Source: a virus. Taken from it: a stretch of DNA of 34,204 nucleotides. Both the position numbers and the translations under genes were made by a program. The stretch spans positions 1 to 34,204 of IMG/VR virus record IMGVR_UViG_3300009124_000049. One strand, 5' to 3'. Each line of letters starts with the position of its first letter. Position 1 is the stretch's first letter. The notes under the pieces were generated by a model. That model did no database searches. It saw only the letters and a list, made by a program, of their open reading frames with translations, and had not been told where the DNA came from. Of the stretch, positions 1-34,100 are shown piece by piece.

Positions 1-306
1 GACGCCGTAGCGGCGGACGGGCGCACCATCATCGAGACCCGGCGGCTGGCGTTCTGCTACTACATGCACAGCGAGCCTAAGATGTTCAACGGCGGCGCGC
101 TCGAGTTCCTCGACGGCACCAGCGTGACGCCCAAGAACAACCGGATCGTCTTGTTTCATCCCGTGCAGCAGCATCGCGTGCTCGCCGTGGAATGCTGGAG
201 CTCGCACGTGCTGCACGGTCGCTGGGCGATCGTTGGATGGCTGCACGGCGACGCGCCGGCGGGATACCGCGAGCGTCTGCCGGCGATGCGCGGCGTGCTA
301 GGATAA
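1..306 (+). CDS. 2OG-Fe(II) oxygenase (prolyl-4-hydroxylase-like), 3' part only
   Basis: The reading frame is already open at base 1 and stops at 304-306, so only about the last 101 codons are present. The visible part is the C-terminal half of a double-stranded beta-helix 2-oxoglutarate/Fe(II) dioxygenase. It has a strand reading FNGGALEFLDG, then NNRIVLFHP, then QQHRVLAVE carrying the second iron-ligand His, then GRWAIVGWLHG with the Arg that would bind 2-oxoglutarate. The HxD motif holding the first two iron ligands should lie about 20-40 residues earlier, outside or at the edge of the window. Such enzymes are common auxiliary genes in environmental phages, where they may hydroxylate a virion or host protein; the substrate cannot be read from the sequence. 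It is followed by a hairpin and then a control region, so it probably closes the preceding transcription unit. Confidence 0.8.
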   Translation, partial: DAVAADGRTIIETRRLAFCYYMHSEPKMFNGGALEFLDGTSVTPKNNRIVLFHPVQQHRVLAVECWSSHVLHGRWAIVGWLHGDAPAGYRERLPAMRGVLG

Positions 307-386
307 AGGGCGAGTCAGCCGTCCACCTGCTGACCCGCCCACGCTGGCGTCCCTTCCAGCACCTCTCGAGGTCGCGAGCATAAAGA

Positions 387-418
387 AGGCCGCCGCAGCG
401 GTCAAACTGCGGCGGCCT
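387..418. terminator. Strong 12-bp hairpin in the 307-598 gap
   Basis: AGGCCGCCGCAG (387-398) and CTGCGGCGGCCT (407-418) are perfect inverted repeats around an 8-nt loop. The hairpin lies 81 nt after the oxygenase stop, a sensible place for transcription of that gene to end. There is no T-run on the + side; the - strand reading is followed by TTCTTTA. It is therefore a stable stem but not a textbook intrinsic terminator. It could also be a Rho-dependent stop or an RNA-processing stem. Confidence 0.5.
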
Positions 419-488
419 AGGAAAGCAGGGCGCGGCTGCTGGTGGTGTTGAGCTAGGGAGGGAGCATCAAGGGCACCACGCGCCCGCC

Positions 489-496
489 GCTACAGT
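489..496 (+). promoter_or_regulatory. Candidate -10 element upstream of the replication operon
   Basis: The sequence CGCTACAGT has TACAGT at 491-496, the same GCTAC(A/T)(G/C)T core found in the gaps before 2538, 4682, 8313 and 14728. No convincing -35 hexamer is visible 16-18 nt upstream. If it is used, transcription would start near 503, giving a leader of about 95 nt before the initiator gene at 599. Apart from this element, the hairpin at 387-418 and the palindrome at 547-570, I see nothing in the 292-nt gap. Confidence 0.35.
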
Positions 497-546
497 AGGA
501 CATCTGCGCGATGTTTCAAGGATTGTCGCCGGCGCGCTTTCGCTTC

Positions 547-570
547 GGTAGCGCACGCGCTACCGTAGCG
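547..570. promoter_or_regulatory. GTAGCG palindrome upstream of the initiator gene
   Basis: GGTAGCGC (547-554) and GCGCTACC (557-564) are perfect 8-bp inverted repeats with 2 nt between them. A third GTAGCG follows directly at 565-570. The array is centred about 40 nt before the start at 599 and would lie in the mRNA leader if the element at 491-496 is the promoter. It resembles an operator or initiator-binding site. A variant of the same hexamer (GTAACG) recurs inside the downstream gene, which is compatible with autoregulation by the initiator. Confidence 0.4.
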
Positions 571-598
571 GGAGCACCTGAGAGCGCACGGAAAGCAG

Positions 599-1420
599 AT
601 GGCAGGATGGACCAAGCTACACAGCCGGATCGTCAAGAGTTCGATCTGGAGCGCGCCGGACCACGTTCGGATCTTGTGGATCACAATGCTGGCCGAGGCC
701 AACGCGGAAGGATTCGTGGACTCAAGCGTGCCCGGCCTCGCGCGCACGGCCAACCTCGAGCTCAGTAAGACCGAGGACGCGCTAGAGGTCTTGCAAAGCC
801 CCGACCCCTACAGCAGCGACCAGACGAGCGGCGAGCGCATCGAAGCAGTGCCGGGCGGCTGGTTTATCAAGAACCACAAGGACTACCGCGACGTGCGGAC
901 CAAGAAGCAGGAGCTGACAGCCGCGCGCACGCGTAAGTGCCGAGCGCGCAAGAAGCAGAAGCTAGAGCAGGCCGACGGCGCTACATGTAACGATGTAACG
1001 CAGGGTAACGCTCCGCAACAGAAAGTAACGAGCGGTAGCGTTCCGGCTTCTTCTTCTTCTTCTTCTTCTTCTTCTTCTTCCTCTGCTTCTGCTTCTGCCT
1101 CTGACTCTGCAGAGAAGGAGACGACGAGCAAGCGGTCAAAGCCGGCGACTCGGCCCGACGACATCCCCGAGCAGCTCTGGCAGGACTGGTGCGACCATCG
1201 CCGGCGCAAGCGCGCGAGCATGTCGCAGACGGTCGTCGACAGCCTGCGCCGCAAGGCCGAGCAAGCCGAGATCACGCTCGCGCAGGCGCTTGAGATCCAG
1301 CTGACGAACGGATGGCAGGGCTTCGAGACGCACTGGCTGCCGGGCCGGCGTCAAGGTGGAAACATTCCGAAAACTACACCGCCGCAGACCTACGATGGCC
1401 CGACGATCGACGAGCTGTAA
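599..1420 (+). CDS. Phage replication initiator (O-like / replisome organiser)
   Basis: A 273-residue protein. The N-terminal 90 residues are a winged-helix region of the phage replisome-organiser type (WTKLHSRIV, DHVRILWITMLA, SVPGLARTANLE). A basic linker follows (about 100-125), then a Gln/Asn-containing stretch and 12 consecutive Ser residues leading into Ser-Ala repeats (about 145-175). The last 80 residues form a conserved helical module ending in GWQGFETHWL, as in many phage initiators. The expected role is to bind the phage origin and recruit the helicase loader encoded directly downstream, 2 nt away. The start at 599 is the first ATG in frame and has a weak GGA ribosome-binding site. 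The Ser tract comes from a TTC microsatellite, and iteron-like repeats lie just before it, so the gene may contain the origin as lambda O does. Confidence 0.75.
   Translation: MAGWTKLHSRIVKSSIWSAPDHVRILWITMLAEANAEGFVDSSVPGLARTANLELSKTEDALEVLQSPDPYSSDQTSGERIEAVPGGWFIKNHKDYRDVRTKKQELTAARTRKCRARKKQKLEQADGATCNDVTQGNAPQQKVTSGSVPASSSSSSSSSSSSASASASDSAEKETTSKRSKPATRPDDIPEQLWQDWCDHRRRKRASMSQTVVDSLRRKAEQAEITLAQALEIQLTNGWQGFETHWLPGRRQGGNIPKTTPPQTYDGPTIDEL
987..1040. repeat. Iteron-like GTAACG direct repeats inside the initiator gene
   Basis: GTAACG occurs at 987-992, 995-1000, 1005-1010 and 1025-1030, with the variant GTAGCG at 1035-1040. The copies starting at 995, 1005, 1025 and 1035 are in 10-bp register, about one helical turn. 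The codons used here (GTA, GGT, GCT, ACA, TGT, AAA, CAA) are unlike the G/C-ending usage around them, suggesting selection on the DNA itself. By analogy with origins embedded in phage O genes, these could be initiator-binding iterons. Confidence 0.5.
1048..1080. repeat. (TTC)11 microsatellite
   Basis: Eleven uninterrupted TTC units form a 33-nt polypyrimidine run on the + strand, followed by imperfect CTC/TTC/TGC triplets to about 1095. In the reading frame of the initiator gene this encodes poly-Ser, so unit gain or loss changes only linker length. Homopurine-homopyrimidine tracts can form triplex DNA. Its position directly after the GTAACG repeats makes it a possible part of an origin. Confidence 0.9.
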
Positions 1421-1422
1421 CC

Positions 1423-2460
1423 ATGACCGATCAAACCATTGACCAGACTCTCGCGCAGCGCATGGCGTTCGCGCTCATCTACGTCGACCAGATCGACACG
1501 GACCGCGCCGCCCGCGAGCTCGACACCAGCCGCGAGGAGGTCTTGCGCATGGCTAGGATCGAGCTCGAGCGCCGGCAGCAGGCCGCGGCTCTGGACGGCG
1601 AGACCGCGCGCTGGAAGCGGCGCGACGAGCTGCAGCGCAAGCGCACGACCGTAGGCGAAGAACCGCGCACGTGCGTCGCGCACGGCCCTTACATCGCAAT
1701 ATGGACGCGCCTAGACCCGAAGCCGAAGCCGCACGCGGCGCACGCGCAGATGAACGAGGAGGACTTCTGCCTCGGCGCGAAGCCGTCATCGTGCCCAGAG
1801 TGCGACCGCGAGCTCCAAGCGATCGCCGACGCGCGCGACGCTGAGATCCGCGGTGGCATGTCCGCGGCCGATCAGCAGAACCTGCAGCGCATCAAGCACG
1901 CGAACATCCCGAAGCGATACCACGGCTCGACGATCGGAAACTGGCAGCACGGCTCGGACCGGCAGGAGCGCGTCTGGCGATGGGCGAGCGACTACGCTGC
2001 GGACTGCGAGACCGTCGTCAGCACGGGCCGCTCCGCGGTCCTCGTCGGCGGACCCGGCACGGGCAAGACGCACCTCGTCATCGGCGTGCTCAAGCAGTTC
2101 ATGAACCAAGGCGCGACCGGCTACTACACGACGGCGATGGACATGCTGGGCCGGATCAAGGCGACCTACAACGAGCAGGCCGTCGAGACCGAGACGCACG
2201 TCATCGAGCGGCTCACCAGCGTCGACCTGCTGGTTATCGACGAGATCGGCCGGCAGCTCGACACCAACTACGAGGTGGCGCAGATGTTCCGCGTGCTCGA
2301 CCGCCGAAGCTCGGAGTGCCGGCCGACTCTGCTGGTCAGCAACCTCGGCGTCGCCGACTTCAAGAAGTTCGTCGGCGACCACGTCGTCGACCGGCTACGG
2401 CAGCACGGGGGCAAGATGCTGCAGCTAGATTGGGAGAGCCACCGCCGGACCGCCCGGTAG
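1423..2460 (+). CDS. DnaC/IstB-like helicase loader ATPase
   Basis: A 345-residue AAA+ protein. The N-terminal third is helical with a likely zinc site (C84-x2-H87, C116, C124-x2-C127). The ATPase core has Walker A GGPGTGKT (209-216) and Walker B LLVIDEIG with D273/E274, followed by a sensor-like LLVSNLG. This is the arrangement of DnaC-type loaders, which place the replicative helicase on DNA opened by an initiator. It lies 2 nt after the O-like gene, and no phage replicative helicase is seen, so it probably recruits the host DnaB. The start at 1423 is preferred over an in-frame ATG at 1312 because the upstream extension would lie inside the initiator gene in another frame. Confidence 0.85.
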   Translation: MTDQTIDQTLAQRMAFALIYVDQIDTDRAARELDTSREEVLRMARIELERRQQAAALDGETARWKRRDELQRKRTTVGEEPRTCVAHGPYIAIWTRLDPKPKPHAAHAQMNEEDFCLGAKPSSCPECDRELQAIADARDAEIRGGMSAADQQNLQRIKHANIPKRYHGSTIGNWQHGSDRQERVWRWASDYAADCETVVSTGRSAVLVGGPGTGKTHLVIGVLKQFMNQGATGYYTTAMDMLGRIKATYNEQAVETETHVIERLTSVDLLVIDEIGRQLDTNYEVAQMFRVLDRRSSECRPTLLVSNLGVADFKKFVGDHVVDRLRQHGGKMLQLDWESHRRTAR

Positions 2461-2473
2461 CACCAGGGCGGAA

Positions 2474-2537
2474 GATTCTGCGGAAAAACAGAGGAAAGGC
2501 GCTGGACGTAGCCGATAGGTCTGCTACAGTAACGCCC
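2474..2537 (+). promoter_or_regulatory. Duplicated 64-bp promoter, copy 1 (leaderless)
   Basis: This gap matches 4618-4681 at 57 of 64 positions with no indels, and the identity continues into the first 10 bases of both genes (ATGGAAAGCA). A -35-like TGGACG (2503-2508), a 16-nt spacer and -10 TACAGT (2525-2530) are visible. Seven nt separate the -10 from the ATG at 2538, so transcription should start at or next to the start codon. There is no Shine-Dalgarno sequence in those 7 nt. A near-palindrome TTCTGCGGAA lies at 2476-2485. Confidence 0.7.
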
Positions 2538-2810
2538 ATGGAAAGCAACGCACCCGTCAAGTTCATCGCTGGCCGCACCTACCGCACGCGCTCGGCCTGC
2601 TCGCACGAGACCGTGTTCGGTTTCGAGATCGTCCGCCGCTCCGAGAAGAGTGTCTGGTTCCGCGAGGAGGGCAGCGAGAAGGTTCAGCGCCGAGCCATCT
2701 ACGTCTATGAGGGCAGTGAGAAGTTCAACCCGTTCGGCGTCTACTCGATGTCGCCGGTCATTTCCGCAGATCGCCCGGTCTGGGCGGTCGTCATGGAGGC
2801 CGCACAGTGA
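2538..2810 (+). CDS. Small protein of unknown function (90 aa)
   Basis: I do not recognise this protein. It is 90 residues, predicted mostly beta-stranded, with the segments FIAGRTYRTRS, FGFEIVRRSEKSVWF and AIYVYEGSEKF, and no membrane segment. This is compatible with a small DNA- or RNA-binding beta-barrel fold, but that is only an impression. It is the first gene behind the copy-1 leaderless promoter and shares its first ten nucleotides with the gene behind copy 2, although the two proteins are otherwise unrelated by eye. Its stop overlaps the GTG of the next gene by 4 nt, so it heads a translationally coupled early operon. Confidence 0.7.
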   Translation: MESNAPVKFIAGRTYRTRSACSHETVFGFEIVRRSEKSVWFREEGSEKVQRRAIYVYEGSEKFNPFGVYSMSPVISADRPVWAVVMEAAQ

Positions 2811-3010
2811 GCGGCTACGGCGACATCGGCTACCGCTCGCTCGGCACGCCCGAGCTGCGGCCGACCGACTACGAGACCGACACCGACTACTGCGACGACT
2901 GCGACCAGCAGGCGTTGCTGATCGACCTAGAGCACGACGAGATCAAGACCGGCGGACGGCGCTGCGCCGACTGCCAAGAGAACCAACCGACAAGGGAGAA
3001 CCAATGCTAG
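2807..3010 (+). CDS. Small zinc-ribbon-like protein (67 aa)
   Basis: A 67-residue acidic protein starting with GTG inside the GTGA overlap with the upstream stop. It has two Cys pairs, CDDC near residue 30 and CADC near residue 55, about 22 residues apart, which is the spacing of a small zinc ribbon. The rest is rich in Asp, Glu and Tyr. It lies in a run of four short genes before the PD-(D/E)XK nuclease. Small zinc proteins in such early clusters often bind nucleic acid or host proteins, but nothing more specific is supported. The following gene begins inside its last codons. Confidence 0.65.
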   Translation: MSGYGDIGYRSLGTPELRPTDYETDTDYCDDCDQQALLIDLEHDEIKTGGRRCADCQENQPTRENQC

Positions 3011-3237
3011 ACGAGACGCTTCAAGAGCTCGAGACATGGCGGCGCGACCTGCGCACTAAGATGCACGAGCTACTCTCCGACCGCTACGCCGACGACCCGC
3101 TGCCGTTGCTGCAGGTCTCGGCCGCTCTCAGCTACCTGGAGAGCTCGATCATGGCCGTCCGCGGCGTGCAGAACGCGCTCGACGAGTGCCGCGACATCGT
3201 CGAGCAGATCGACGCCGACCGCGAGGTGACGGCATGA
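3004..3237 (+). CDS. Small helical protein (77 aa)
   Basis: A 77-residue, almost entirely helical acidic protein, with heptad-like spacing of Leu, Met and Val through LDETLQELETW and YLESSIMAVRGVQNAL. It is likely to form a coiled coil or helical bundle. The start at 3004 is supported by AGGGAG about 7 nt upstream, one of the clearer Shine-Dalgarno sequences here. A longer in-frame extension from 2650 is rejected because it would overlay two other genes. The stop overlaps the next ATG (ATGA). Function unknown; co-transcribed with the nuclease gene. Confidence 0.65.
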   Translation: MLDETLQELETWRRDLRTKMHELLSDRYADDPLPLLQVSAALSYLESSIMAVRGVQNALDECRDIVEQIDADREVTA

Positions 3238-3383
3238 GCTACCGCGACAAGGCCGGCCGATTCCGCAAGCGCACCGGCCTCGACGTGCTCGACGAGGTCG
3301 GCGCGCTCCTCGCGCTGCCGGCGATCATCTGGGCGACCCCGTGGCTCTACGGTCTCGCGCAGGCCATGGAGGCGACGCCGTGA
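3234..3383 (+). CDS. Small membrane protein (49 aa)
   Basis: A 49-residue protein with a basic N-terminus (MSYRDKAGRFRKRTG) and one hydrophobic segment around residues 22-44 (GALLALPAIIWATPWLYGLA), so probably a single-pass inner-membrane peptide with a cytoplasmic N-terminus. It overlaps the upstream stop (ATGA) and the downstream GTG start (GTGA). It lies in the early region, far from any late lysis cassette, so a holin role is not supported. An early host-takeover or exclusion peptide is possible but is inference only. Confidence 0.6.
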   Translation: MSYRDKAGRFRKRTGLDVLDEVGALLALPAIIWATPWLYGLAQAMEATP

Positions 3384-4216
3384 CCGAGACGAAGACGACG
3401 ACCGTGGCCGCCGAGGGCGGGCACTGGTATCTGCCGGGCACCGGCGAGCAGGTCATCAGCGTGCCGCGCGCGAAGGGCGGCGGCGAGCGCGCGCCGACGC
3501 TCCGCGACGCTAGGAAGCACGGCTGGCTCCCTGGCTGCACCTCTGTGATCCGCGCCGGCGGCGCACCGTGGCAGCTCGTTCGCTGGCAGCAAGAGCGCGC
3601 CGTCGAGGCGGCGCTCGAGCTCGACGAGCAGCCCGACGAGGATCGGCCGGCCTACCTGCGCCGAGTCATCAGCAAGGCGTCCGAGATCGCCGCCGAGGCC
3701 GCGGCGACCGGCACCGAGATCCACAAGCAGCTCGAGCTCTACTGGCGCGGCGAGGCGTTCGATCCGTTCTGGAAGGATCACGTCCTGGCCGCCGCGGACG
3801 CGCTCGAGCAAGCGGTGCCGACCGCCGACACCCTGCACCCGTGGCTCGCCGAACAGAGCTGCTCGCACAGTAGCGGCTACGGCTGCCGCGTGGATCTCCA
3901 CAGCGAGATCATGGTGGTCGACGTGAAGACCAAGAAGGGCACGCCAGAGGATTGGGCCGGGCGGTCCGGGCGCATCACGACGTTCCCCGAGCACTGGATG
4001 CAGCTTGCGGCCTGCCGCGCGGCGCTCGTCGAGCGGTTCGGCTGGGAGCCGGACCAGCAAGATGCGGGCATTCTCTACGTCAGCCGCGACGAGCCGGCGG
4101 CGGTCTTCTGCCCGGTGACGCCAGAGCAGCTCGAGCAGGGCTGGGCGATGTTTCAGGCGATGCTCGCTTTCTGGAAGGCGAGCAACCGCTACGACCCGAC
4201 GGAGTGGCGGGCATGA
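3380..4216 (+). CDS. PD-(D/E)XK nuclease, RecB/Cas4-like exonuclease
   Basis: A 278-residue protein starting with GTG in a GTGA overlap. The PD-(D/E)XK signature is complete: E113 and H115 in GTEIHKQ, D172 in GCRVDL, D181 and K183 in VVDVKTKK, and Q208 in WMQLAACRAAL. This places it in the RecB/Cas4/lambda-exonuclease-like superfamily of metal-dependent nucleases. In phages such enzymes resect double-strand ends to load a single-strand annealing protein. Here the ERF annealing gene lies about 700 nt downstream, so the two probably form a recombination pair. The N-terminal 60 residues look like a separate cap region and carry no recognised motif. No Cys cluster typical of Cas4 iron-sulfur proteins is seen. 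Confidence 0.8.
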   Translation: MTETKTTTVAAEGGHWYLPGTGEQVISVPRAKGGGERAPTLRDARKHGWLPGCTSVIRAGGAPWQLVRWQQERAVEAALELDEQPDEDRPAYLRRVISKASEIAAEAAATGTEIHKQLELYWRGEAFDPFWKDHVLAAADALEQAVPTADTLHPWLAEQSCSHSSGYGCRVDLHSEIMVVDVKTKKGTPEDWAGRSGRITTFPEHWMQLAACRAALVERFGWEPDQQDAGILYVSRDEPAAVFCPVTPEQLEQGWAMFQAMLAFWKASNRYDPTEWRA

Positions 4217-4617
4217 GCGCGCGCGACGATGTGTTGTATGCGGCGGGCAAGGTCGTCTCCGCGTGGCGGCGCGAGCGGCAGTTCATCCCCGAGGAGCTTG
4301 AGGACCAGATCATCATGCTGATGCGAGCCATCGAGGCGATGAACGCCGAGCCGCACGCTCGGAACACGGACCCCGACACAAGCCGCCAGGGGCCGTCTAC
4401 GGTCCGCATCGCCGGCAACCGCCTCGAGGTGCTCGCGCTCCTACGGCAGCGGCCTCGGACCGACGAGGAGCTCGTAGCGTGCCTGAGCGGGCAGATGTCC
4501 GCGAGCGGCGCGCGCACGCGGCGGGCCGAACTGGTGCGGGCCGGACTAGTCCGCAAAGCCGGATACCGGCGCAAGAGCGCGACGGGCCGGGCGATGACGG
4601 TCTGGGCCGCGGTCTAG
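4213..4617 (+). CDS. Winged-helix DNA-binding protein (134 aa)
   Basis: A 134-residue protein. The first 45 residues are helical. A linker follows with the phage-type motif NTDPDTSRQGP, then a C-terminal winged helix at about 67-134 (NRLEVLALLRQRPRTDEEL, TRRAELVRAGLV, wing RKSATGRAMTVWAAV). Proteins of this kind are frequent in phage early regions and are presumed regulators, though the same fold can serve in replication. It overlaps the nuclease stop (ATGA) and ends 1 nt before copy 2 of the duplicated promoter, so it is a candidate repressor or activator of that element. That link rests on position alone. Confidence 0.65.
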   Translation: MSARDDVLYAAGKVVSAWRRERQFIPEELEDQIIMLMRAIEAMNAEPHARNTDPDTSRQGPSTVRIAGNRLEVLALLRQRPRTDEELVACLSGQMSASGARTRRAELVRAGLVRKAGYRRKSATGRAMTVWAAV

Positions 4618-4681
4618 GATTCCGCGGAAAAACAGAGGAAAGGCGCTGGACGTAGCCGATGGATGCGCTACTGTAACACCC
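4618..4681 (+). promoter_or_regulatory. Duplicated 64-bp promoter, copy 2 (leaderless)
   Basis: Second copy of the 2474-2537 element, starting directly after the upstream TAG stop. It has -35-like TGGACG at 4647-4652, a 16-nt spacer and -10 TACTGT at 4669-4674, with the ATG 7 nt later at 4682. The upstream palindrome is perfect here (TTCCGCGGAA, 4620-4629). Differences from copy 1 cluster in the spacer, while the upstream 40 bp are nearly invariant, as expected if a protein binds there. Confidence 0.7.
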
Positions 4682-4924
4682 ATGGAAAGCACCCAACTCA
4701 ACGCCCGCGCGATGCGCGCGGCGGTCTCTAAGATCCCGGCGCAGATCGACGCCATCAGCCGCACGCTCGAGGAGTATCTCGGCAGCTACCCGTTCGACAT
4801 TGACACGCCGGACAACCTCATCAACGAGGTCATCGACGGGCACTCCGAGGCGCAGCAACTCCTCGACAAGCTCGCCGCGACGGTTGCGGCGCTGCCGCAG
4901 ATGCCGCAGGGGGGTGTGGCGTGA
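4682..4924 (+). CDS. Small helical protein before the ERF gene (80 aa)
   Basis: An 80-residue helical protein with no recognised domain; a central FDIDTPDNLINEVIDGHSEA stretch joins two helices. It is the first gene behind promoter copy 2 and has no Shine-Dalgarno sequence, as expected for a leaderless message. Its stop overlaps the GTG start of the ERF gene (GTGA). It could be a partner of the annealing protein, since small helical proteins often precede phage recombinases, but there is no motif to support a specific role. Confidence 0.6.
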   Translation: MESTQLNARAMRAAVSKIPAQIDAISRTLEEYLGSYPFDIDTPDNLINEVIDGHSEAQQLLDKLAATVAALPQMPQGGVA

Positions 4925-5547
4925 GCGTTGACCACCAGAACATCACGGCGGCCTTGGCCGCATTCCACGCCGAGGTCGGCACCATCGAGAAGACCGCTCG
5001 AGCTCAATACGGCTCGTTCGCGGATCTCTCGACCGTGCTCTCGGCGGTGACGCCGGCGCTGTCACGTAACGGCCTCGCGCTCGTCCAGACGTTCGACATC
5101 GACGGCGACGCCGACGTGCTCGTCACGACGCTCTACCACACCAGCGGCGAGACGATCACCAGCCGCGCGCGACTCGTCCGCGTCGAGGGAAGCGGCGGCC
5201 GGCAGAACCCCCTGCACCTCTGGGGCGGGAGCGTAACCTACGCCCGACGCTACACCGCGCTCGCGCTCATCGGCCTCGCCGCCGGCATGGACGACGATGA
5301 TGGCGACATCGCCGACCCTCCGAAGAAGGTCCGCGTCGCGCCGGCCGCCAAGGTCACGCCGAAGAAGGTTGAAGGCTGGGACAGCCGCGAGCACGCCGAG
5401 CAGGCGCTCGACCTCTGCGGCACGAGCGACGAGCTGCAGGCATGGGCGATCAAGACGAAGGCGAGCGGATTCCAAGGACTCGACCGCGACGAGCTCCTCG
5501 AGGCGTTCCGCGAGCGCAAGGCGATCGTCGAGGAGTCCGTCGAATGA
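4921..5547 (+). CDS. erf: ERF-family single-strand annealing protein
   Basis: A 208-residue protein starting with GTG. The N-terminal 125 residues match the ERF superfamily pattern: an AQYGSFADLSTVLSAVTPAL segment, the strand GLALVQTF, and the family signature GGSVTYARRYTALALIGLA followed by an acidic MDDDDGD. ERF proteins bind single-stranded DNA and anneal complementary strands, supporting phage recombination and genome circularisation or repair. The C-terminal third is a Lys/Ala linker and a short helical domain. Partners in the window are the PD-(D/E)XK nuclease upstream and RusA downstream. It overlaps the helicase-methyltransferase gene by 4 nt. Confidence 0.85.
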   Translation: MSVDHQNITAALAAFHAEVGTIEKTARAQYGSFADLSTVLSAVTPALSRNGLALVQTFDIDGDADVLVTTLYHTSGETITSRARLVRVEGSGGRQNPLHLWGGSVTYARRYTALALIGLAAGMDDDDGDIADPPKKVRVAPAAKVTPKKVEGWDSREHAEQALDLCGTSDELQAWAIKTKASGFQGLDRDELLEAFRERKAIVEESVE

Positions 5548-31107: not shown

Positions 31108-34100
31108 CGAGCTTTACCGACTTCACCGACCTCGGCTTCTTCCCGCTGCAAGACCACGCGGCGGCGCAGGATGGCACGCCGATCAGCCGGCGCATGATGC
31201 TGGCCGGCGGGCGCATCATCCAGATGACGGACCCCGGCACGGCGGCGACGGCGGCCGATGCGCAGATCCGCTACGGCCGCGAGCACGGCCTGGGCACACT
31301 CGGCGACGTCCACCCGTGGATGTTCTGGCAGACCCGCGAGCGCGCGGTCCGCGGCATGGGCTCATGGGCGCAATCGTTCGCGTCGGTGGCCGTCGACGCA
31401 GACCCCTACTACGGCAGCATCAACGCGCAGCCGATTCGCGACCGGGCATTCCAGAACGACACCCGATACCGGCCGCTCGACGCCGCGTGGCCGGCGGGCT
31501 TCCAACGTGTTCCACGTGGAACACTGCTGACCGTCATGCCCGGCACCGAGGAGTCAGGGCAGCAGGCCGTGGCAATGTGGGCCGATCCGAGACTGGTCGC
31601 GCCGAACGCTGCCGGACCGGGCGAATGCGGCACGCTGGTCGTCGACCTGGGGCCGGACCGCGAGCTGTGCATGGACGGCAGCGACACGCCGGGCATCGGC
31701 GGCCGTCATGCGCGGCTGCAGAGCCTCCTGCGCGTCATCCCCGTCCCGCCGAACCAATCATTCGCCGATCTGGGCGGCCGTGGCAACACGCTCGCGCTCA
31801 ACTTCTCGACGTCGGGCAAAGACAACATCCCCAACTTCGGAGCGTTCTGGGCGCGCACAGCCGGCGGTGGAGGTGGCGGCCCGACGACTGGCGGCGGCGG
31901 CCCGATCACCGGCGGCCCGAGCTCGTCGACTCCCAGCGGACCCATCACCGGCGTCCCCAGCAGCGGTACCGACGGCCCGAACCGCAGCACGTTTGGCACG
32001 CTACAGGTCGGCGGCGGCGCATTCGGTGCCGGCGTCGATGCCGGAGAGGACGAGAAGCAGCCCAAGGACTATGGGCAGTTCGGGCAAAACTTCGTCGGCG
32101 GCCACGCTGTCGCGCTCATGTCGTCGATCGGCGGCGACGGTCCGTTGCATGCTGGCAGTAATAACGACAAGCACCGGCACGGCACAGATCGCGACGGGCA
32201 CCCGATCAACGCCGCGCACATCAGCACGTCGGCCTACTTCTACCAGAACGAAAGCCAGGACGCGCCGATTGAGTTTGGCGGTGGCTACCCGAACCCGGAG
32301 CCTCTGCCGATCCCTGCGCCGGCGCACCTGAGCTACGACGCCGGCAGCATCCACGGATTCAGCCGCGGGCTGAGGAGCGGCCTGTGGCGCTTCTGGTGCG
32401 AGACGCCGGACATTAGCCCACCGCCGGATATTCCATACGATCCGCCCCCTGGGTATCCGGGGCCGCCGGGGCCTCCGGGGCCTCCTGGGCCTCCTGGGCC
32501 GCCAGGACCGCCAGGGCCTCCTGGGCCACCGGGCGGACCTACGACCGGCCGACCGGGCGGACCTACGACGGGCGGACCTAATCGACCCAACCGAACGCCG
32601 GGAGACACGGTGCCGACGACGCCGACCTATGGTCGGCCGATCACGCCTAACCCAGGCGGCAAGCGGTTCCCTGGTTATCCGTCCACAGGACCAACGACCG
32701 GACCGATGACCGGACCCGGCACTGGCGGCACGCCGGCGGGACCGACCACAGGCGGCGGCGGCGGGCAGCCATCGGTCCCGTGCAAGACCAACCCCATCAC
32801 GCCCGGACCTAGCAGCGGCCCGACTACCGGAGGGCCTCGAGGCCCTAGCGATCAGGTGCCGCCCGGCCAGCGATCGCAGCCGGTCTGGACGCCTCGAGGC
32901 CGCGGCATTGGCGGCGGTCGCGGCACCGTCCCAGGCGGCGGCGAGCAGCGAAGCGAACGCTCGACGATGATGCCGACCGGCGCGGCCATCTTCGGATTCG
33001 GTGGCAGCCACATCCTGCCGCTATCGGGCAGTCTCGGAGGACGAGGCGACCAAGGCACGCGCGGGCAGGACGTGCGCACGAACCTGATGCGGCTGTCTGG
33101 GCGTAACCCGTTCAACAACGAGCCGCACGTCATCTCCGGCGTCAGCGAGCGCATCGGCAGCGCGACGCGCGAAGACCAACAGCTCTACACGCTGTTCAGG
33201 CCGATGGCGCAAGGATTCGCGTCGATCAACTTCCGGCCGCAACTGACCATCAACGGGTTCCCCAACTTCGAGCACAACCCGCAGATGCCGCTGTCGATGT
33301 ATCTCAACGACGAGCGCACGCGGCCTCAGGTGCTGACGATGCGCGCGTGGGGAGCTCAGAGCGCATCGGATTCGGACTGGCGATACGTGCAGCAGCCGAG
33401 CGGCAGCCGAGCTCGAGGCGGAACCGGCGACGGCGGCATATTGCTCGCGCCGCCGCGGTTCGAGCTGTCGGACTACTACGGCATCGGCGGCGACGTCATG
33501 GACGTCACCGACACGACGAGCGCGCAGGCGACGGCGAACCACGTCCTGCACGCGCCCGGCGTGAGTCTGAGCTACGGCCTACCCAACGCCAACGGCAGCC
33601 TGCAGCTTGGCAGCTCGAGCACGACCTACGGCGGCACCACGCAGCCGCAACTGACCCGCGTGCATACGAGCTCCGGCACGGTCAACGCTTGGACGTTGAA
33701 CTACAACAGCACCGGAGACGAGGTAGTGGTGGCGTTCGGCCAGACGCAGGCCGTGCAGATCCCATCGGGAACGACGGCACAACGGCCCAGCAGCATCGCG
33801 CCGGCGGCCGGCATGATCCGGTTCAACACGACCAACACTGAGGCCGAGGTCTACAACGGCAGCTCGTGGTCGGCGCTTGGCGGCGTCAGCGGATCGCTGG
33901 TCAGTCTTGGACTGACGGCATCGGCCGAGCGCCTGATCGGCAACACACAGATCGCCGACGGCAACCTTGAAGAGATCAGCCTCGACGCCACGCTCGAGTT
34001 CAACCCGAGCGGCGTGACGCTAGGAATCGCAGGCAAGAGCCTGGGCGCTTCACAGATCGCTGACGGTTCGATCACGGACGCGCTCCTCGCATCCGGCGGG

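Follow-up and report, generated by a model that had tools for sequence, protein, structure and literature searches.

A promoter-like element duplicated at two operon starts of an uncultured high-GC phage and its probable role in leaderless expression

Introduction

Phage transcripts are often leaderless, as one report puts it (PMC5312081). In a second, the mRNAs of PY54 cI and cro were mapped by RACE and found to be leaderless, and likewise that of the lambda prophage repressor gene (PMC4488713). Leaderless genes are marked by TA-like signals about 10 bp before their starts, which take the form TAnnnT in high-GC groups, and lambda is named in this context (PMC3160421). The start-associated repeats of the cluster K mycobacteriophages contain a ribosome-binding site (PMC3203893).

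Here, we analyzed a 34,204-base IMG/VR record from a high-GC, uncultured phage, used in its complete length and referred to as the window, in which a promoter-like sequence of 64 bp stands before two operons. Like lambda cI and PY54 cI and cro, the locus has phage promoters placed for an AUG-initial mRNA with no Shine-Dalgarno sequence; those units are switch genes that have been mapped experimentally, whereas the starts described here are predicted, belong to recombination and replication operons, and use one promoter twice. The locus also resembles the TAnnnT leaderless genes of high-GC bacteria (PMC3160421) in having, in DNA of high GC content, a TAnnnT core roughly 10 bp ahead of the start, but it lies in a phage. 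With the SAS and ESAS of the cluster K mycobacteriophages it shares the position of a repeated element immediately before the starts of non-structural genes; the SAS, however, is a 13-bp sequence with a ribosome-binding site, whereas the present unit is 64 bp long, promoter-like and without one (PMC3203893). Identity with the SAS was rejected by eye, no GGGATAGGAGCCC-like 13-bp AGGAG sequence lying 3–7 bp before either ATG under the definition given in that paper (PMC3203893). A literature search limited to openly available papers found no repeated leaderless phage promoter. An earlier note on this DNA had called leaderless translation in a phage notable; this was overstated, given that leaderless phage mRNAs were already established (PMC4488713; lambda in PMC3160421).

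Results

The two copies of the element, both on the plus strand and each comprising an upstream box, a -35-like and a -10-like hexamer, occupy positions 2474–2537 (W1, start at ATG 2538) and 4618–4681 (W2, start at ATG 4682). W1 has a DnaC-like gene on one side and a 90-aa gene on the other; W2 begins directly behind the stop codon of the gene at 4213–4617 and runs to a gene designated here as gene b. The gap-free match of 57 of 64 positions up to the ATG, reported in the earlier note, was confirmed by a list of the mismatches (element positions 6, 44, 46, 48, 49, 55, and 61) and by a repeat search, which returned a gap-free 74-nt direct repeat (2474–2547 and 4618–4691; 91% identity). Most of the differences lie within the spacer or affect one unconserved -10 position. 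BLAST against the whole 34,204-base record retrieved the second copy with an E-value of 2.5e-25, far exceeding chance, and no third copy; two more scans found no further copies, with none expected from shuffles. The first ten coding bases, ATGGAAAGCA, are identical behind W1 and W2, and no relation between the first proteins of the two operons was detectable, so that this observation of the earlier note also stands.

In W1, the -35-like TGGACG (2503–2508; 4/6 to TTGACA) is separated by a spacer of 16 nt from the -10-like TACAGT (2525–2530), which is preceded by TG plus one base as in an extended -10 and lies 7 nt before the ATG. In W2, TGGACG (4647–4652), again with a spacer of 16, is followed by TACTGT (4669–4674), also 7 nt before the ATG. 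Both -10-like boxes fall within the 5–8 nt before the start codon expected of a leaderless transcription unit. The duplex energies of the 20 nt upstream, -2.7 kcal/mol for W1 and +0.6 kcal/mol for W2, indicate no Shine-Dalgarno sequence before either start, which bears out the note's claim that the ribosome-binding site is lacking. The ATG is preceded by C in both window copies and in the related records L003 and L083; C before ATG is a usual pyrimidine-purine start context. The hexamers score 8/12 (W1) and 7/12 (W2) against the E. coli consensus, and a promoter scan at a threshold of 9/12 listed neither copy. Only 23 sites on both strands combine a score of at least 7/12 with TAnnnT, and three distinct ones adjoin gene starts. 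GGA recurs every 11 bp at 2482–2506 and 4626–4650, upstream of and into the -35-like hexamer, and could represent phased binding sites.

A structured RNA or riboswitch leader was considered and rejected, since the window gave 0 Rfam matches and the plus strand showed no stable fold (z-scores -0.47, 0.16, and 0.81). On the minus strand of 2474–2547, by contrast, copy 1 gave a more stable fold than its shuffled versions (z -2.66). A search of positions 1–11000 returned no plus-strand terminator-like site.

Operon 1 (2538–4617) comprises four small genes without assigned function, a PD-(D/E)XK exonuclease-like gene (3380–4216), and a winged-helix gene (4213–4617). Its first gene (2538–2810), encoding the 90-aa protein without assigned function, has weak relatives in three phage records. 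The winged-helix-like domain of its last gene, a candidate regulator, is predicted in the C-terminal half of the product; a model built on eight sequences had PadR-like and other transcription factors as its top PDB matches, the best with an E-value of 1.3e-3 and none at or below 1e-3. Operon 2 starts with gene b (4682–4924) and continues with an ERF single-strand annealing protein gene (4921–5547) and a helicase-methyltransferase fusion (5544–7760). Judging from gene functions only, both operons would be early. Elsewhere in the window, a serine-coding TCT-type run lies within an O-like replication gene (1046–1100), and the last open reading frame contains a collagen-like Gly-Pro-Pro repeat (32444–32533).

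When related phages were compared for further copies, as the earlier note had proposed, the element was found before the ERF/helicase operon, i.e., at the place of W2, in two related virus contigs, L003 and L083, with the -35 and -10 kept. These two are identical over the element and therefore count as one lineage. Their layout is TGGACA, 17 nt, TACGGT, 6 nt, and ATG, so that the total distance from the -35 to the ATG equals that in the window. Between W2 and L003, 22 of 28 positions are identical in the upstream box, 6/6 in CTGGAC and 5/6 in the -10, whereas only 8 of 15 aligned spacer positions agree, with five gap columns. Conservation of the box (22/28) is not above that of a nearby gene (303/350) but is above that of the spacer and of the adjacent 52 bases (35/52). 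In the window, the upstream winged-helix gene terminates ahead of the element, whereas in L003 (1163–1618) it reads across the element in another frame and ends in the spacer; the match between W2 and L003 is therefore not kept as coding sequence.

Searches beyond this lineage returned no further members. The exact whole-element pattern was absent from the viral contigs, and among the stretches returned by two looser patterns (11 and 5, respectively), only L096 and L100, from the same contigs as L003 and L083, fit, the others being judged by eye to be chance matches. A DNA search of phage records and a search with the DnaC-like protein as the query both gave no hits, and the best non-member score in an element scan of 172 records, a set that included duplicates or fragments of the window, was 23/33. 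Similar repeated starts in other loci amounted to 189 pairs; the 60 listed were mostly low-complexity or terminal repeats. The element is also absent at the distant ERF relatives L084, L089, and L122, where a different, palindrome-bearing region is found: ERF is preceded by a box, TTGAAA or TGGAAA, with a GCCGC/GCGGC inverted repeat behind it (L084 9945, L089 9957, and L122 5680), possibly an operator-bearing promoter.

L003 and L083 also provide a comparison of gene b with and without a leader. There, the element is followed by an extra gene, gene a, and then by gene b, which has acGGAGGaaacc with the Shine-Dalgarno sequence GGAGG before its ATG. The Shine-Dalgarno energies are -9.5 kcal/mol for gene b of L003/L083, +0.6 kcal/mol for gene b of the window, and -3.1 kcal/mol for gene a of L003, and the gene b proteins are 84% identical between L003/L083 and the window. 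Relatives of gene b among the viral contigs scanned with a gene b alignment were only L003 and L083. Gene b has a Shine-Dalgarno sequence when internal and lacks it when first behind the promoter, as leaderless initiation predicts, and the relatives would show the gene switching between a leaderless and an ordinary start mode. The coding sequences of gene a, gene b, and the 2538 gene each open with ATGGAAAGCA, although, among the loci compared, neither the gene a protein nor the 2538 protein found a match outside its own records. The promoter and the first codons thus seem to travel together. Gene a may have been lost from the window lineage by deletion between the two ATGGAAAGCA repeats.

In addition to what the earlier note described, a third leaderless-type site was found at 8275–8312 on the plus strand. 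It consists of TTGCGG, 18 nt, TACACT (8299–8304), and 8 nt before ATG 8313, the start of a gene (8313–8657) for a protein like DnaA domain IV (Bac_DnaA_C; Pfam E-value 3.5e-19). L003 and L083 have TTGCGT, 18 nt, TACACT, 8 nt, and ATG at the counterpart, and the site is absent in L122 and L123. Upstream of this ATG, the nearest 40 bases are identical at 25/40 positions between the window and L003, a match reached in 0 of 5000 shuffles, and the next 30 at only 8/30; the DnaA-like proteins of the two are 47% identical. Ahead of the DnaA-like gene in L084 and L089, and near position 2065 of L086, TGTGGATA, close to the reverse complement of a DnaA box, overlaps a -10-like box, possibly allowing self-control.

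TAnnnT lies 5–8 nt before 5 of 39 gene starts of the window, the boxes clustering at 6–8 nt, compared with a mean of 0.65 in dinucleotide shuffles of each upstream stretch, none of 2000 of which reached 5. The 39 starts were picked by hand from the ORF table, with the off-frame 16826 and 21237 left out, and may include wrong starts. With W1 and W2 being copies of each other, the number of independent cases falls to 4. Two of the matches, at 9048 and 24900, overlap coding sequence or a stop codon and may be accidental; the former is not kept in L003, and the latter matched nothing beyond the window. Outside the listed starts, TAnnnT precedes 1 of 353 plus-strand ATGs. Weak Shine-Dalgarno sequences are found at many window genes.

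Among the deduplicated starts of relatives with GC above 58%, the signal peaks at a gap of 6 (11/677), although six of the 11 represent a single orthologous gene. Gaps 5–8 together give 16, below the mononucleotide-shuffle mean of 22.2; a class-wide leaderless enrichment in the wider helicase relatives is not convincing. The automatic gene caller was crude, starts 2538 and 8313 being missing from its matches. In another phage group (L033, L050, L069, L073, L078, and L082), CTACCCTTGG stands directly before the ATG of one orthologous gene in a leaderless-like layout.

A search for the host via prophages gave no relative among genome contigs with the terminase as the query; the helicase yielded 17 loci, 16 of them from MAGs of mixed phyla, and no host was assigned.

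Discussion

We consider it likely that the repeat is a duplicated promoter of the housekeeping-sigma type with the RNA start at or near the A of the ATG, making both operons leaderless. The copied unit would begin roughly 60 bp upstream and include the first ten coding bases, and would thus carry promoter and start together. Copy 1 would drive the exonuclease operon that closes with the winged-helix protein, copy 2 would drive the operon of ERF and the helicase-methyltransferase, and both mRNAs would begin with AUG and be translated as leaderless messages. That the element acts as a promoter, where exactly its transcripts begin, that these are translated, and that the box upstream of the -35 serves to regulate both operons together are all inferred here. 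The promoter and leaderless reading of the earlier note is supported in part: the element is kept at the operon of W2 in the relatives, the -10 lies 6–7 nt from the ATG, and the ortholog of gene b has a Shine-Dalgarno sequence only when it is not first. Counting against it are the weak hexamers and the single lineage of L003 and L083, and read-through from upstream genes could also give longer mRNAs.

Such read-through might even predominate, or a real promoter might start transcription further upstream, with translation proceeding without a Shine-Dalgarno sequence from a leadered mRNA. The lack of plus-strand terminator-like sites in 1–11000 and the weak Shine-Dalgarno sequences of many window genes would suit this explanation, but it is unlikely in view of TACnGT at leaderless spacing in W1, W2, and L003 and of the DnaA-like site, which repeats the layout with another sequence. 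We regard it as still less probable that the repeat is mainly a binding site for an operator or activator protein, or a recombination patch, to which the promoter match is incidental. The box kept upstream of the -35 in the relatives, the 11-bp recurrence of GGA, and the winged-helix gene adjoining W2 speak for this, yet a box alone leaves the kept -10, the ATG, and the first ten coding bases unexplained. That the repeat is what remains of a duplicated gene start and plays no part in expression, as two copies in one record with the same first ten coding bases might suggest, is very improbable, because W1 and W2 differ chiefly in the spacer and at the unconserved -10 position, and because a relative has retained the element despite a diverged spacer.

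Extending the preferred reading of a duplicated leaderless promoter, we tentatively propose, as a possibility well short of an even chance, that a portable start unit of promoter, AUG, and first codons spreads in the phage genome and makes its recipient genes leaderless, that the winged-helix protein of operon 1 controls both copies, and that gene b of the window once had a Shine-Dalgarno sequence and was captured when a deletion occurred between the two ATGGAAAGCA repeats that are still in L003.

Other phages are already known to use this start mode; the element is probably a leaderless duplicated promoter, for which the natural comparison is unusually clear, related phages offering one gene both with a leader and, probably, without it. 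The locus suggests that phages use leaderless starts beyond repressor genes, that such starts can also serve operons for recombination and replication, and that they can be moved as one unit.
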